Shown: one piece after another, positions 8,119 through 60,208 of the stretch
How the letters are laid out: the number at the start of each line of letters is the position of its first letter
How positions within the stretch are numbered: position 1 is the stretch's first letter
Source: Nonomuraea basaltis
Lineage (GTDB): Bacteria; Actinomycetota; Actinomycetes; Streptosporangiales; Streptosporangiaceae
Direction of reading: 5' to 3'
Assembly: GCF_005893125.1 (NCBI RefSeq)
Contig: NZ_VCJS01000015.1
Location: 1 to 64,000, forward strand
DNA length: 64,000 bases
Translations under genes and position numbers: made by a program
Notes under the pieces: generated by a model
What the model saw: the letters and a program-made list of their open reading frames with translations, nothing else
Database searches by the model: none
What the model was told of the DNA's origin: nothing

Positions 8119-9840
8119 TCAGTCGGACCAGTCGGCGGTGATGAGCTCGGGCAGCGGCTCGAACTCCTTGATCGCTTCCAGCGATGGCCCCATGGCGGCG
8201 TTGGCCTCGCGCTCCACCATCACCTCCACCAGCACCGGCAGCCGCTCGCGCGCCGCCTCGGCCGACGCCCAGGACAGCGCGTCGCGGATGTCGCCGGGCA
8301 GCTCCACCCGGCGCGCCGGGCAGCCGAACGCCTCCATGGCCTTGACATGATCGATGCCGCCCTCCCCGTAGTGCAGGTCCACGGCGTAGTTCATGCCGTA
8401 CGGGATCTCGGCCTGCCTGATCAGCCCCAGGTACTCGTTGTTGATCATGACGATGACGAACGGGATCCGATATTGCGCCGCCACCGCGATCTCCTCCATC
8501 AGGAACTGGAAGGAGTAGTCCCCGACCACGGCCACGACCTGCCGCTCGGGATGGGCGCACTTGACGCCCATGGCGGCGGGCACCTCCCAGCCCAGCGGCC
8601 CGGCCTGTCCGCACACCAGGTAGCGGCGCGGCAGGTACGTCGTCTGGAACTGGCCCGACCAGATCTGGTAGAGCCCGATGGCGGTGACGAACGTGGTGTC
8701 CCGGTCGAAGAACTCGTTGATCTCCTTGAACACCCGCGGCGGCTTGATCGGCACGTCGTCGAAGTCGTCGCGACGGGCCATCGTGCGGCGCAGGTCGGCG
8801 ACCTTGCGCACCCATTTGCCGGGCTCCTGCGCCCCGGTACGGCCGCGCGCCTCCTCCAGCAGCTCCGCCAGCACCGGCCGGGCATGGCCGACGATCCCGA
8901 GCTCGGGCTCGAAGACCCGGCCGATCTGCGTCGGCTCGATGTCCACGTGAATGAACGTGCGGCCCCGGCGGTAGACGTCCAGGTCGCCGGTGTGCCGGTC
9001 GCCGAACCGCGCCCCCACGGCCAGCACCAGGTCGCTCTCCAGGAACGCGGCGTTGCCCCAGCGGGTCTGCGTCTGGATGCCGGCCATGCCGGCGAACAGC
9101 GGGTGGTCCTCGGGGAAGGCGCCCTTGCCCATGAGCGTCACCTGCACGGGCACCTGGAGGTACTCGGCGAGCGCGCGCAGCTCCTCGCAGGCGTCGGCGA
9201 TGATCACGCCGCCGCCGGCCAGGATGATCGGCCGCCGGGCCTCCGCCAGCAGGTCCACGGCCCTGCGCACGGCCCTGGGCAGCGGCCCCGGCGCCTCGAC
9301 GGGCAGCGGCGCGTCCAGGTCGCGGTCGTAGAGGCAGGTGCCGCGCTGCACGTCGATCGGCAGGTCGATGAGCACCGGCCCCGGCCGCCCCGAGCGGGCG
9401 ATCCGGAACGCCTCCCGGAACACCCACGGCGCCTGGGCGGGCTCCTTGAGCTGCACCGCCCACTTGGTCACCGGCCGGGCGATCTCCACGATGTCGACCG
9501 CCTGGAACGCCTCCTGGTGCAGCTTGGAGGTCATGGCCTGGCCGGTGACGCAGATCATCGGGATCGAGTCGGCCAGCGCGGTGTAGAGGCCGGTGATCAT
9601 ATTGGTGCCGGCCGGGCCCGACGTGCCGATGCAGACGCCGACGTTCCCGGTCACCCTGGCCCAGCCGTCGGCCGCGTGGGTGCCGCCCTCCTCGTGGCGT
9701 ACCGTGATGTGCCTGATCGAGCTGTGCTGAAGCGCGGCGTAGAGCGGCAGGATGGCCGCTCCGGGGATGCCGAAGACGGTGTCCACCCCCTCCGACTCCA
9801 GCACTGCGACCACGGCCTCCATGCAGGGGACGCGCTTCAT
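8119..9840 (-). CDS. gcl: glyoxylate carboligase-like ThDP enzyme
   Basis: ThDP-dependent enzyme of 573 residues, predicted to join two glyoxylates into tartronate semialdehyde plus CO2. It follows the glyoxylate carboligase pattern closely (GTSGPAGTNMITGLYTALAD, then EAFQAVDI and RPGPVLIDLPIDVQ) and has the ThDP-Mg motif GDYSFQFL...NNEYLGL. One key oddity: the position that is Val51 in E. coli Gcl is Glu50 here (RHEEGG), the canonical ThDP glutamate that classical Gcl lacks. ATG 9840 overlaps the glxR stop (ATGA). It lies between glxR and an aldehyde dehydrogenase, and hyi is upstream, the usual gcl neighbourhood. A related carboligase activity is the main alternative. Confidence 0.85.
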   Translation of the reverse strand: MKRVPCMEAVVAVLESEGVDTVFGIPGAAILPLYAALQHSSIRHITVRHEEGGTHAADGWARVTGNVGVCIGTSGPAGTNMITGLYTALADSIPMICVTGQAMTSKLHQEAFQAVDIVEIARPVTKWAVQLKEPAQAPWVFREAFRIARSGRPGPVLIDLPIDVQRGTCLYDRDLDAPLPVEAPGPLPRAVRRAVDLLAEARRPIILAGGGVIIADACEELRALAEYLQVPVQVTLMGKGAFPEDHPLFAGMAGIQTQTRWGNAAFLESDLVLAVGARFGDRHTGDLDVYRRGRTFIHVDIEPTQIGRVFEPELGIVGHARPVLAELLEEARGRTGAQEPGKWVRKVADLRRTMARRDDFDDVPIKPPRVFKEINEFFDRDTTFVTAIGLYQIWSGQFQTTYLPRRYLVCGQAGPLGWEVPAAMGVKCAHPERQVVAVVGDYSFQFLMEEIAVAAQYRIPFVIVMINNEYLGLIRQAEIPYGMNYAVDLHYGEGGIDHVKAMEAFGCPARRVELPGDIRDALSWASAEAARERLPVLVEVMVEREANAAMGPSLEAIKEFEPLPELITADWSD

Positions 9841-54778: not shown

Positions 54779-54790
54779 GAGAGCGCTCTC
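54779..54790. promoter_or_regulatory. LacI-type operator 1 (glucanase)
   Basis: GAGAGCGCTCTC, a perfect 12-bp palindrome of the kind bound by LacI-family repressors of actinobacterial glycoside hydrolase genes (compare CebR boxes). About 140 bp before the glucanase start. Confidence 0.75.
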
Positions 54791-54878: not shown

Positions 54879-54892
54879 AGAGAGCGCTCTCT
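54879..54892. promoter_or_regulatory. LacI-type operator 2 (glucanase)
   Basis: AGAGAGCGCTCTCT, a perfect 14-bp palindrome, 37 bp before the glucanase start and 101 bp from operator 1. A TTGACA-like box (54844) lies between them. Spacing near ten helical turns would suit looping. Confidence 0.8.
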
Positions 54893-54929: not shown

Positions 54930-56303
54930 ATGACGACAACGATCCGGCACCGGCGCCGCCTGGCGGCAGTGGCCGTGGTGCTCATGGCACTCACGGGCCT
55001 GCTGGTCAAGGCGGCCGTCAGCGCCTCGGCCGCCGTCCCGCCCACCCCGTCCGGATGGTCGCTGGTCTGGTCCGACGACTTCAACGGCGGCGCGGGCGCC
55101 CTTCCTTCGTCGGCCAACTGGATCATCGACACGGGGCACTCGTACCCGGGCGGCCCGGCCAACTGGGGCACCGGCGAGGTCCAGAACTACACCTCCAGCA
55201 CCTCCAACCTCAGCCTCGACGGCTCGGGCAACCTGCGCATCACGCCCCTGCGCAGCGGCTCGGGAGAGTGGACCTCGGCCCGCATCGAGACCAGGCGCGC
55301 CGACTTCAAGCCCGCCGACGGGCGCATCCTGCGCATCGAGGGCCGCATCCAGATGCCGAACGTGACCGGCAACGCGGCGCTGGGCTACTGGCCGGCGTTC
55401 TGGGCGCTCGGCTCGCCGTACCGGGGGAACTACTGGAACTGGCCGGGCATCGGCGAGTTCGACATCATGGAGAACGTCAACGGCATCAACTCCGTCTGGG
55501 GCGTGCTGCACTGCGGCGTCAACCCGGGTGGGCCGTGCAACGAGACGACCGGCCTCGGCGCCAGCCGCGCCTGCCCCGGCTCCACCTGCCAGTCGGCCTA
55601 CCACACGTACCGCTTCGAGTGGGACCGCAGCGTGAGCCCCAACCAGTTGCGGTGGTACGTGGACGGCCAGCAGTTCCACGGCGTGAACCAGTCCCAGTTC
55701 GACGCCACCACCTGGAACAACATGACCGGCCACGCCGGCTACTTCCTGCTGCTGAACGTGGCGATGGGCGGCGCGTTCCCCGACGCCCTGGCCGGCCCGA
55801 CGCCGACGGCGGCGACCGTGCCCGGACGACCCATGATGGTGGACTACGTGGCGGTGTGGCAGAGCGGCACCGGCCCCACCAATCCCCCTGGTGGCGTCGA
55901 CGCCCGCTCCACCATCCAGGCCGAGCGCCACCAGGCCCAGTCGGGCACCATCGTCGAGACGACCACCGACACGGGCGGCGGGCAGAACGTCGGCGCCATC
56001 TCCAACGGCGACTGGCTCCGCTACGACGGGGTGAACTTCGGCACGGCGGCGGCCACGCAGTTCAGGGCCAGGGTGGCCTCCGGGGCGGCGGCCGGCGTGA
56101 GCGGTCTGGTGCAGGTCAGGCTGGACAGCCCCACTGCCGCGCCCATCGGCGACTTCGCCGTCGCCAACACGGGCGGGTGGCAGAGCTGGCGCACGGTGCC
56201 CGCCAACATCTTGGGGGTGACCGGCACGCACACGGTGTACCTGACCTTCAGCAGCGGCCAGCCCGCCGACTTCGTCAACGTCAACTGGTTCTCCTTCTCC
56301 TGA
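54930..56303 (+). CDS. secreted GH16 endo-1,3-beta-glucanase with CBM6
   Basis: Secreted laminarinase-type enzyme of 457 residues. A signal peptide ends near residue 34 (VSASAAV). The GH16 domain (about 37-310) holds the catalytic motif GIGEFDIMEN (ExDxxE) and WPAFWALGSPYRGNYWNWP. A short Gly/Pro linker leads to a C-terminal CBM6-type carbohydrate-binding module (about 325-457: IQAERHQAQSGTIVE, ISNGDWLRYDGVNFG, VNVNWFSFS). Degrades beta-1,3-glucan of fungi or plants outside the cell. Two LacI-type operators precede it, and GGAG lies before ATG 54930. Confidence 0.94.
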   Translation: MTTTIRHRRRLAAVAVVLMALTGLLVKAAVSASAAVPPTPSGWSLVWSDDFNGGAGALPSSANWIIDTGHSYPGGPANWGTGEVQNYTSSTSNLSLDGSGNLRITPLRSGSGEWTSARIETRRADFKPADGRILRIEGRIQMPNVTGNAALGYWPAFWALGSPYRGNYWNWPGIGEFDIMENVNGINSVWGVLHCGVNPGGPCNETTGLGASRACPGSTCQSAYHTYRFEWDRSVSPNQLRWYVDGQQFHGVNQSQFDATTWNNMTGHAGYFLLLNVAMGGAFPDALAGPTPTAATVPGRPMMVDYVAVWQSGTGPTNPPGGVDARSTIQAERHQAQSGTIVETTTDTGGGQNVGAISNGDWLRYDGVNFGTAAATQFRARVASGAAAGVSGLVQVRLDSPTAAPIGDFAVANTGGWQSWRTVPANILGVTGTHTVYLTFSSGQPADFVNVNWFSFS

Positions 56304-57754: not shown

Positions 57755-60115
57755 TCAGGTGGAATCCCGGACCACGACGCGGGCGGGCAGGACGACGGAC
57801 TCGGTGTGCCGGCCCTCCAGCCGCGACAGCAGCAGCCGCGCGACCGCCAGCGCCTGGTCCGCGACCGGGACGCGGACGGTGGTGAGCCCCGGCGTGGTGG
57901 CCGAGGCGGCGTCGATGTCGTCGAAGCCGACGATCGCCAGGTCCTCCGGCACCCGCCGCCCGGCCTCCCGCGCCGCCTGCAGCGCCCCGATGGCGAGCTG
58001 GTCGCTGGCGGCGAAGACGGCGTCGAGGGCGGGCTCGTCGCCGAGGAGCCGCCGGGTCGCCACCGCGCCCGACGACCGGGTGAGGTCCGCGAGCGCCAGC
58101 AGCGGCTGCAGGCCGGCGCGCCCCAGCGCGGTCCGGTGGCCGGCCATGCGGTCCTGCATGGCGACCAGGTCCAAGGGGCCGCAGATCATGCCGATCCGGC
58201 GGCGCCCGCGGGACAAGAGGTGCTGGGTCGCGGCCTGCGCGCCGCCGGCGTTGTCGACGTCCGCGTACGGCACCATCGAGGCGATCGCGGGCTTGCCCAG
58301 CAGCACGATCGGCACGCCGGTGCGGGAGAGCCGCTCGGCCAGCGTGTCGCCCCGGTCGGGCGGCAGCAGCACGACGCCGTCCACCAGGCGCGCCTCCACG
58401 TGCTGGACGATGCGCCGGTGGCTCTCGGCCGTGTCCGCGAGCATGAGTGTGATCTGCTTGCCCGCGCCCTCCAAGAGGCTGGTGACGTACTGGGCGACGG
58501 CGGCCGTGAGCTGGTCGCCGCCCTGCCTGGGGACGGACAGGACCAGCGCGATCGCGTTGGTGCGGCGCGTGACCAGGCTGCGGGCGGCCGCGTTGGGCAC
58601 GTACCCCAGCTCCCTGACCACCCGCAGCACCGCCTCGCGGGCCACGGGGCTCACCGACGCCTCGCCGTTGACCACGCGCGAGACCGTGGCCCGGGAGACG
58701 CCGGCGCGGGCGGCCACGGTCTCCAGGGTGGGGCGCTTGGGGCCGGTCTCGGTCAGGCCGTTGCGCTTGATGACGTCGCGGTACCACAGCGCGCTGTCCT
58801 TGAGCCGCCGCCGCTGAGTGGCGAAGTCGACGTGGACGAGGCCGAACTTGCGCTGGTAGCCGTCGACCCATTCGAGGTTGTCGAGCAGCGTCCAGACGAG
58901 GTATCCGCGGACCTTGACGCCCTCCTCGACGGCCGAGCGCACGGCGCGCAGGTGCTCCTCGATGAAGCTGATGCGCTCCACGTCGTGGATGCCGTCGGCG
59001 GTCACCACGTCGACGAAGTCCGCGCCGTTCTCTGTGATCATCAGCTCGGTCTCGGGGAACTCCGAGGCCAGGCGGCGCAGCAGCAGGGACAGGCACCCGG
59101 GGACGATGGGCCAGCCCATGGCGGTGACCGCCGTGGGCACCGTGCAGAAGAGCACGCCCTCGCTTCCGGGGAAGGCCGCGTCGGCGGGCTCGCTGGGCTG
59201 CGCCTGCACGACCAGCGGGGTGTAGTAATTGACGCCGAGCAGGTCGACGGGCTGGGCGATGAGCTCCAGGTCGCCGTCGCGCACGTGGCCGAGGCCCGCG
59301 GTGCGCTCGATGATCGGCAGCAGGTCGGCCGGGTACGCGCCGCGCAGCATCGGGTCCAGGAACTGCCGGTTGGCCAGGGCGTCGATCCTGGCCACGGCCT
59401 CGGCGTCCTCGGCCGGCAGCGGCCTGCCGAGGTCGCTCACCTGGGCGGGCGTCACGACGGGCGAGATGTTGAGCACGGCGCCCACCTTCGACGCCCCGGC
59501 CGCGCGCAGCGCCTGGGCGCCGAGCCCGTGCGCGAGCAGCAAATGGTGGGCGCTCAGGAACGCCTCTGCGGCCGATTTCCGCCCCGGCGCGTGAATGCCG
59601 GAGCCGTGGCCGAGAAAGGCCGCGACCCACGGCTCGTTGACCGTGAACCAGGTGTCGACCCGATCTCCCAGCCGCTCGTAAACAGCTCTGGCGTAATCGG
59701 CGAAATGGTGGGCGGTATCCCGGGCCGGCCAGCCGCCGGCGTCCTCCAGAGCCTGCGGCAAATCCCAATGATAAAGCGTCGCATAAGGCGTGATGCCCGC
59801 GTGGAGCAGCTCGTCGAGCAGCCTGTCGTAAAAGTCGAGCCCCGCCGGGTTCACCTTGCCGGCCCCGTCGGGAAACACTCGGGGCCAGCTCACCGAGAAC
59901 CGGTAGGCGGCCATTCCCAGGTCTTTCATCAGCCGCACGTCTTCGGGATATCGGTGGTAATGGTCGCACGCCTCGGCGCGGTCTGCGGAAAAGGTGTCCC
60001 AAATGGACAGCCCGCGGCCGTCGGCGGACGTCGCCCCCTCGATCTGGAACGCTGACGTCGACACTCCCCAGACGAAACCCTCAGGGAAACGTGCGGTGCT
60101 CGTTGTTGAGCTCAT
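57755..60115 (-). CDS. GH1 beta-glucosidase fused to LacI family repressor
   Basis: One open frame of 786 residues. Residues 1-452 are a complete GH1 beta-glucosidase: acid/base Glu161 (FTVNEPW), nucleophile Glu362 (ITENGAD), and the usual ending WYRDVIKRNG. Residues 455-786 are a complete LacI repressor: helix-turn-helix TLETVAARAGVSRATVSRVVNG (463-484), hinge, and sugar-binding domain ending in VLPARVVVRDST. The junction codon 454 is CTG (58756-58754) in the context CCTGACC. One base change would give a normal ATG/GTG start, and TGA is present in the next frame, so a stop-start overlap seems to have been joined by an indel. A sequencing error could also produce this. No strong ribosome-binding site at 60115. 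Confidence 0.88.
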   Translation of the reverse strand: MSSTTSTARFPEGFVWGVSTSAFQIEGATSADGRGLSIWDTFSADRAEACDHYHRYPEDVRLMKDLGMAAYRFSVSWPRVFPDGAGKVNPAGLDFYDRLLDELLHAGITPYATLYHWDLPQALEDAGGWPARDTAHHFADYARAVYERLGDRVDTWFTVNEPWVAAFLGHGSGIHAPGRKSAAEAFLSAHHLLLAHGLGAQALRAAGASKVGAVLNISPVVTPAQVSDLGRPLPAEDAEAVARIDALANRQFLDPMLRGAYPADLLPIIERTAGLGHVRDGDLELIAQPVDLLGVNYYTPLVVQAQPSEPADAAFPGSEGVLFCTVPTAVTAMGWPIVPGCLSLLLRRLASEFPETELMITENGADFVDVVTADGIHDVERISFIEEHLRAVRSAVEEGVKVRGYLVWTLLDNLEWVDGYQRKFGLVHVDFATQRRRLKDSALWYRDVIKRNGLTETGPKRPTLETVAARAGVSRATVSRVVNGEASVSPVAREAVLRVVRELGYVPNAAARSLVTRRTNAIALVLSVPRQGGDQLTAAVAQYVTSLLEGAGKQITLMLADTAESHRRIVQHVEARLVDGVVLLPPDRGDTLAERLSRTGVPIVLLGKPAIASMVPYADVDNAGGAQAATQHLLSRGRRRIGMICGPLDLVAMQDRMAGHRTALGRAGLQPLLALADLTRSSGAVATRRLLGDEPALDAVFAASDQLAIGALQAAREAGRRVPEDLAIVGFDDIDAASATTPGLTTVRVPVADQALAVARLLLSRLEGRHTESVVLPARVVVRDST

Positions 60116-60150
60116 TCTGGCGAAGACCCTCCGGTGAAGCTTCAGAGCGT

Positions 60151-60188
60151 CCAGTCTCTCGCGCGCCGCTCATCGCGCGCCAGACTGG
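60151..60188. promoter_or_regulatory. long dyad between GH1-LacI and Lrp genes
   Basis: CCAGTCT (60151-60157) and AGACTGG (60182-60188) enclose two CGCGCG blocks that can also pair, giving a 38-bp symmetric hairpin with an 8-nt loop. Lies between divergent genes, 20 bp before the Lrp start. Operator or leader hairpin. Confidence 0.5.
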
Positions 60189-60208
60189 CCAGGCTGTATA
60201 CAGAGCGC

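Follow-up and report, generated by a model that had tools for sequence, protein, structure and literature searches.

A reading frame that joins a GH1 beta-glucosidase to a LacI-type regulator in Nonomuraea basaltis and related Streptosporangiaceae

The window, which is the whole stretch of 64,000 nucleotides of Nonomuraea basaltis DNA that was analysed, encodes a complete GH1 beta-glucosidase and a complete LacI-type regulator in a single open reading frame (ORF) of 786 codons that runs without interruption on the minus strand (57755-60115). The original prediction that both proteins share one frame is borne out, and the fusion is found as one coding unit in 83 genomes from 11 genera. Its residues for catalysis and DNA contact are intact and its sugar pocket is changed. 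The reading that we favour, and that we consider about equally likely to hold or to fail, is that the fusion is genuinely bifunctional, a protein of the trigger-enzyme type (GH1 plus a CelR-like LacI half) that would have originated by a single stop loss and whose LacI half would act on GAGAGCGCTCTC operators of a beta-1,3-glucan regulon. The features of the window are shown in Table 1.

Table 1. Positions of the fused gene, its parts and the neighbouring features in the window.
Feature	Position	Strand	Remarks
Fused GH1 beta-glucosidase - LacI-type regulator gene	57755..60115	-	786 aa; ATG at 60115, TGA at 57757-57755
GH1 domain, residues 8-453	58757..60094	-	Pfam Glyco_hydro_1 PF00232, TIGR03356
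Predicted acid/base Glu161	59633-59635	-	Invariant in 83/83
Predicted nucleophile Glu362	59030-59032	-	Invariant in 83/83
Linker, residues 454-462 (LTETGPKRP)	58730..58756	-	CTG of Leu454 at 58754-58756
LacI helix-turn-helix, residues 463-508	58592..58729	-	Pfam PF00356; recognition segment SRATVSRVVNG
LacI effector-binding/dimerisation core, residues 509-786	57758..58591	-	Pfam PF13377; sugar pocket altered (L678 replaces F)
GAGAGCGCTCTC palindrome 1, putative operator	54779..54790	.	Upstream of GH16-like gene
GAGAGCGCTCTC palindrome 2, putative operator	54880..54891	.	38 nt before likely ATG of GH16-like gene
GH16-like / CBM6 protein, signal-peptide-like start	54930..56303	+	Predicted endo-beta-1,3-glucanase; convergent neighbour, putative target
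Intergenic region to divergent Lrp/AsnC gene	60116..60208	.	No GAGAGCGCTCTC-type site
AGACT element	60153-60157	-	About 40 nt before fused ATG

Domain architecture and distribution

The length of the frame is weak evidence, because long ORFs of 765 aa (minus strand) and 749 aa (plus strand) overlap it in other frames of the same GC-rich stretch. The signal above chance is conservation, where the two domains lie in one frame without a stop at 84 fetched loci. Glyco_hydro_1 (residues 8-453), the LacI helix-turn-helix or HTH (463-508), and Peripla_BP_3 (631-786) all exceed their Pfam gathering scores, with 54.1 bits for PF00356 (cut-off 27) and 114.9 bits for PF13377 (cut-off 26.5). The NCBIfam equivalog of GH1 beta-glucosidases, TIGR03356, scores 550.9 bits against a cut-off of 478.5. 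The LacI/GalR architecture of an HTH and a periplasmic-binding-like core is present, with the HTH placed internally, after GH1. The AlphaFold model (32 sequences) has a mean pLDDT of 82.3 and a pTM of 0.60, at which the placement of domains is unreliable. The last GH1 helix of the model ends at residue 451 and helix 1 of the HTH spans 464-471; confidence is low at residues 457-460 (pLDDT below 50) and 504-518.

The GH1 half is similar to the Streptomyces GH1 beta-glucosidase 1GNX (51% identity, TM-score 0.92 by target length), which differs in having no DNA-binding domain, and the fold search returned GH1 enzymes only among the best 50 matches listed. No match spans both halves among the 60 listed by another search. 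The closest solved structure to the LacI half is 5YSZ (E 1e-72), which we take to be CelR of Thermobifida fusca. Trigger enzymes and enzyme-regulator fusions are known from PutA, BirA, and NadR. The fusion resembles them at the domain level, with catalytic and DNA-binding parts in one chain, and a coupling of metabolism to transcription would be possible. To our knowledge, none of the trigger enzymes of this kind pairs a glycoside hydrolase with a LacI-family repressor. No published GH-LacI fusion was found by title in the open-access PMC literature.

The genus Nonomuraea has a match at E <= 1e-150 in 53 of 54 genomes and the fusion in 49 of the 54 (all except G001, G026, G034, G037, and G038). 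Within the family, which we take to be Streptosporangiaceae as defined by GTDB, the fusion occurs in at least 83 of 341 genomes from 11 genera (genera were read from sequence names), and a match at E <= 1e-200 occurs in at least 122 of the 341. The script found 84 fused loci among the fetched loci, or 83 without the duplicate (L059 equals L169), and the fusion counts are lower bounds, since a gene interrupted by a contig end may go unnoticed. The order-wide search added four more genomes and no further match. Beyond the family, the class-wide sample of 394 genomes gave five matches at E <= 1e-170, each of which spans both parts and contains a stop. A candidate second GH1-LacI fusion in the genome of the window (C663; open frame of 788) was rejected, as it consists of two ORFs with a stop between them. 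The fused protein of L176 has a Ser/Gly/Ala-rich insertion after the HTH.

Junction and origin of the fusion

The spacing from WYRD of GH1 to RPTL of the HTH is 13 residues in 82 of 84 fused rows and 11 in the other two. The original prediction had named a one-base sequencing error at the junction as what would undo it. A sequencing or assembly error that joins two separate genes could be suspected in a draft genome of 670 contigs with a contamination estimate of 8%. However, the same frame is present in 83 genomes, several of which are on a single contig, the linker keeps one length in nearly all rows, and it varies synonymously among the orthologues. The recurrence of the frame excludes the error for practical purposes, and the probability left to such an artefact is negligible.

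Unfused relatives from the family were chosen for both parts matching in one frame (28 loci), and two others match in different frames. Seven of the 28 have the GH1 stop and the LacI ATG side by side with nothing between them, sharing the frame and the spacing of the fusions; an example junction reads VIKRNGLMGE*MKRPTLE. The abutting stop and Met align with codons 458-459 of the fused gene (58739-58744), and residue 458 is Arg in 74 of 84 fused rows and Gly in the window. The nearest unfused GH1/LacI pair of the same genome (C84) consists of genes that overlap in different frames. The heptamer CCTGACC is present at the junction as predicted, but the proposal that it is the relic of an overlapping stop-start pair does not stand. 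It covers codons Gly453-Leu454-Thr455, the Leu belongs to the NGL of the GH1 C-terminus that is also found in most unfused relatives, and the abutting stop-start lies four codons downstream.

Internal initiation at the CTG of this Leu had also been proposed, and a start near the junction would yield a separate LacI repressor in addition to the fused protein. In-frame GTG, ATG, or TTG codons do occur at residue 467 (34 of 84 rows) and at residue 448 (20 of 84). Nevertheless, no ATG, GTG, or TTG is conserved between residues 450 and 465 in the 84 fused rows, the Leu454 codon is CTG in 54 rows, CTC in 27, CCG in two, and GTG in one, and initiation at 467 would cut into helix 1 of the HTH. The production of two proteins from one frame is considered very improbable, and the gene would be translated as one chain.

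A single old stop loss is most likely the best and simplest account of the fusion, because the GH1 stop already abuts the LacI ATG in frame in the seven relatives. A beta-glucoside ABC operon ending in bgl and lacI would have lost the stop codon that separates these two genes, once and within the family, and the fused gene would then have persisted on its own alongside the unfused operon. Drawings made with a heuristic gene picker show that an operon of SBP, permease, permease, GH1, and LacI genes ends with the pair in three of four drawn unfused loci of the SR[AS]T group (L177, L181, and L190, not L188). The same ending is found in L286, and in L284 as far as its sequence reaches. No such ABC operon was found before the fused gene in the 11 fused loci drawn; at one of them, L165, a different kind of ABC transporter is encoded on the opposite strand, about 2 kb downstream. 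The beta-glucosidase, LacI regulator, and ABC transporter genes of T. fusca CelR are reported in one operon (PMC3377646, excerpt). The unfused relatives have the same layout of ABC transporter, GH1, and LacI, whereas the fusion is one polypeptide encoded by a solo gene without an ABC operon, with a changed sugar pocket.

The quick GH1 tree exhibits one clade for the fused rows (SH-aLRT 96.5) with one change of state, and the LacI data do not reject a fused clade (p-AU 0.968). A history with two changes, suggested by the first LacI tree, was discarded; that search had missed a tree with the fused rows together that is 55 log units better. The fused gene of L156 has beside it two ORFs of equal length with identical first 70 residues (L156:6394-7053 and 9058-9717), probably a duplicated mobile-element fragment.

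Catalytic, DNA-contact and sugar-pocket residues

Nine GH1 active-site residues, including E161 and E362, are invariant in all 83 fused proteins; they comprise acid/base, nucleophile, and glycone-site residues by the roles described in the GH1 literature. The GH1 half would hydrolyse incoming beta-glucosides. R475, S479, R512, and L514 are identical in all 82 fused rows with letters there and residue 476 is A or S, and these five are presumably DNA-contact positions. The recognition and hinge residues of the fusions match those of the stand-alone LacI paralogues.

The sugar pocket exhibits a different pattern. The pocket aromatic after GD (L678 in the window), which aligns with W of a LacI ancestor and with F of PurR and RbsR, is F in 31 of 31 unfused sequences, and among the 83 fused sequences it is L in 56, F in five, and Y in three. 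Residue 704 is N or S in unfused sequences and S, T, G, D, or N in fused ones, and D732 is replaced by G in 33 of the 83. All 82 fused rows with letters at these positions retain Arg656, Asp705, and Asp733. The fusions do not keep the pocket residues of their nearest unfused relatives, and, as far as residues can tell, the effector pocket is remodelled or lost while the residues for catalysis and DNA contact are kept. The original prediction offered, as one option, that the DNA-bound protein would hydrolyse its own inducer. The GH1 active site is intact, but the pocket is changed at residues that are constant in unfused relatives, so ordinary LacI-type induction by a beta-glucoside may have been lost. 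For this reason simple binding of a disaccharide to the LacI core is probably not what controls the fusion. One version of the bifunctional protein, which we regard as a long shot, is that the signal is now read at the GH1 active site instead of in the LacI pocket; GH1 and the HTH are 12 residues apart. The repressor would then leave the beta-1,3-glucan operators, or stay on them, in response to a substrate bound at GH1, its turnover, or its product, and the LacI core would only dimerise. If true, the inducer site of this repressor would be a working enzyme, and the repressor would reset by destroying its own signal.

Both fused halves are under purifying selection, which is strongest on the HTH, and the LacI half is looser than in the stand-alone paralogue. 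The pN/pS values of 81 fused loci (500 random pairs) are 0.44 for GH1, 0.30 for the HTH, and 0.55 for the LacI core, against 0.40, 0.20, and 0.34 in 23 stand-alone pairs; the rates are comparative only, since pS is near saturation and GC-biased. L059 (duplicate), L175 (cut by a contig end), and L176 (insertion) were left out. The looser LacI half and the altered pocket would suit an ordinary beta-glucosidase whose LacI tail is now structural (oligomerisation) or vestigial and has ceased to bind DNA, as would the lack of an operator before the fused gene and the 0 and 1 sites of genomes G004 and G048 described below. We consider this distinctly unlikely, as the HTH is the most conserved part of the protein and its contact residues, with those of the hinge, are the same in the 82 rows.

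Putative operators, neighbouring genes and the stand-alone paralogue

The recognition helix and the operator vary together in unfused loci. The exact GAGAGCGCTCTC is present upstream in 20 of 23 unfused loci with SR[AS]T-group helices (of these 23, one has SKSS) and in none of seven loci with GVGRGT helices, and the exact TGGGAGCGCTCCCA is present upstream in all seven GVGRGT loci and in none of the 23 others. The fusions have SRAT or SRST helices. T. fusca CelR combines GVGRGT with TGGGAGCGCTCCCA and the fusion combines GVSRAT with, putatively, GAGAGCGCTCTC, so the operator and the helix of the CelR/CebR type are both missing from the fusion. The regulators of the Sros_7169/Tbis_0838 type share the operator core: the Sros_7173 and Tbis_0842 operons are preceded by GGAGAGCGCTCTCC and AGAGAGCGCTCTCT, and two GH16 genes of Catenulispora by a related palindrome (PMC3377646, excerpt). 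Judging from operon make-up and operator, these regulators appear to be of the same group as our unfused relatives. They differ from the fusion in that GH1 and LacI are separate genes, and the unfused relatives in this work keep the pocket residues.

In the 14.3 Mb genome of the window, GAGAGCGCTCTC occurs only twice, 101 bp apart, and both copies are before the GH16-like/CBM6 gene (CBM_6 6.8e-40; Glyco_hydro_16 21.2 bits, just below the cut-off of 22). The placement of the copies is what counts, because about 1.6 chance copies per genome are expected by an estimate from base composition. The Nonomuraea GH16 genes with at least 250 nt upstream (29 genes in 40 loci, the rest being without GH16 or without upstream sequence) all have one or two GAGAGCGCTCTC-type sites upstream. 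Two of these genes come from genomes that lack the fusion, and G037, which lacks it too, has a further GH16 copy with one site. The site counts are 0-12 in 53 genomes of the genus against 0-2 for the reversed control. In other genera, all 20 fusion-bearing genomes counted (of 34 known) have 2-12 sites against 0-1 for the reversed controls. The fused gene is not adjacent to the sites in these other genera. The sites have 33 ORFs near them (20 stretches, nine genomes), of which ten were scanned: two GH81, two GH3, one GH64, one GH16, one GH16-like with CBM6, one F5/8 type C alone, one dehydrogenase, and one with no hit, that is, a carbohydrate-active family or module in eight of ten. The remaining 23, judged by eye, include SBP genes, LacI regulators, and possibly spurious ORFs. 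The sites look like the mark of a regulon that is centred on beta-1,3-glucan, though impure.

In Nonomuraea an Lrp/AsnC gene is transcribed divergently from the fused gene, and the GH16-like gene is usually close by. Autoregulation through a CelR-type site was considered and rejected, as none was found upstream of the fused gene; the fused upstream regions match TGGGAGCGCTCCCA no better than shuffled sequence does, except for one case with one mismatch (L162). AGACT lies about 40 nt upstream in 50 of 83 fused loci from several genera (shuffle mean 3.8; kinship is uncorrected) and may be a promoter element or part of one. The loci of group g30 have AGACT followed by TGAGCGCTCA, which has the operator core in common. 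Many fused loci of Nonomuraea have a CAGCCTGGCCAGGCTG-like palindrome some 80 nt upstream. Its exact core is absent from all eight lrp upstream regions compared, including that of the window, and the palindrome may belong to lrp, because a near variant is present in G026, a genome without the fusion. The motif GTATAC lies 13-15 nt before the lrp start in eight of eight loci compared.

A stand-alone LacI paralogue that is 77-93% identical to the query was found in 17 of 20 genomes searched (all except G004, G048, and G026). The paralogue in the genome of the window (contig C6, 93%, L227:10747-11733) is an intact orphan just downstream of a fragment that matches an SBP gene, and no GH1 or cognate permease gene was found beside it. 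G038, which has neither the fusion nor a GH16 match, has two tandem paralogues (C36:685762-688069; 85% and 83% to the query). The GH16-like gene tracks the paralogue and not the fusion, where G001, G034, and G037 have the gene, the operator, and the paralogue without the fusion. G004 and G048, which are of one lineage, keep the fusion without the paralogue, without a GH16 match at E <= 1e-40, and with 0 and 1 sites, so the fusion is kept there without the GH16 regulon.

The GAGAGCGCTCTC operator would be common to the fusion and the stand-alone paralogue; the fusion need not be its regulator, and the paralogue could alone explain the operators. The fusion might be bifunctional but serve a different operator or respond to a different ligand, and GH16 control would be left to the paralogue. 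The tracking of the GH16-like gene, the persistence of the fusion where both paralogue and gene are gone, and the pocket residues in which fusion and paralogue differ are consistent with this. On the other hand, the HTH specificity residues of the fusion are those of the paralogue, and the fused gene of Nonomuraea usually lies beside the operator-bearing gene. This alternative is possible but unlikely in our estimate. The assignment of the operator to the fusion in the favoured reading of a bifunctional enzyme-regulator draws on the shared specificity residues, the Nonomuraea gene neighbourhood, and descent. In this reading, the LacI half would still recognise the GAGAGCGCTCTC sites as operators in a beta-1,3-glucan regulon, with the GH16-like/CBM6 gene next door as its member in the window.

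Glycoside hydrolases and LacI repressors are textbook partners in the lac, ceb, and cel operons but as separate proteins. In 11 genera the fusion is one coding unit, its enzyme site and DNA contacts preserved and its sensor pocket altered. It would be a natural case of an enzyme-regulator made by the loss of a stop codon in an operon, and it bears on whether an active site can replace an allosteric pocket as the sensor. The fusion may be a switch with a new way of sensing sugar, and the putative beta-1,3-glucan regulon bears on the use of fungal and plant glucans by soil actinomycetes.
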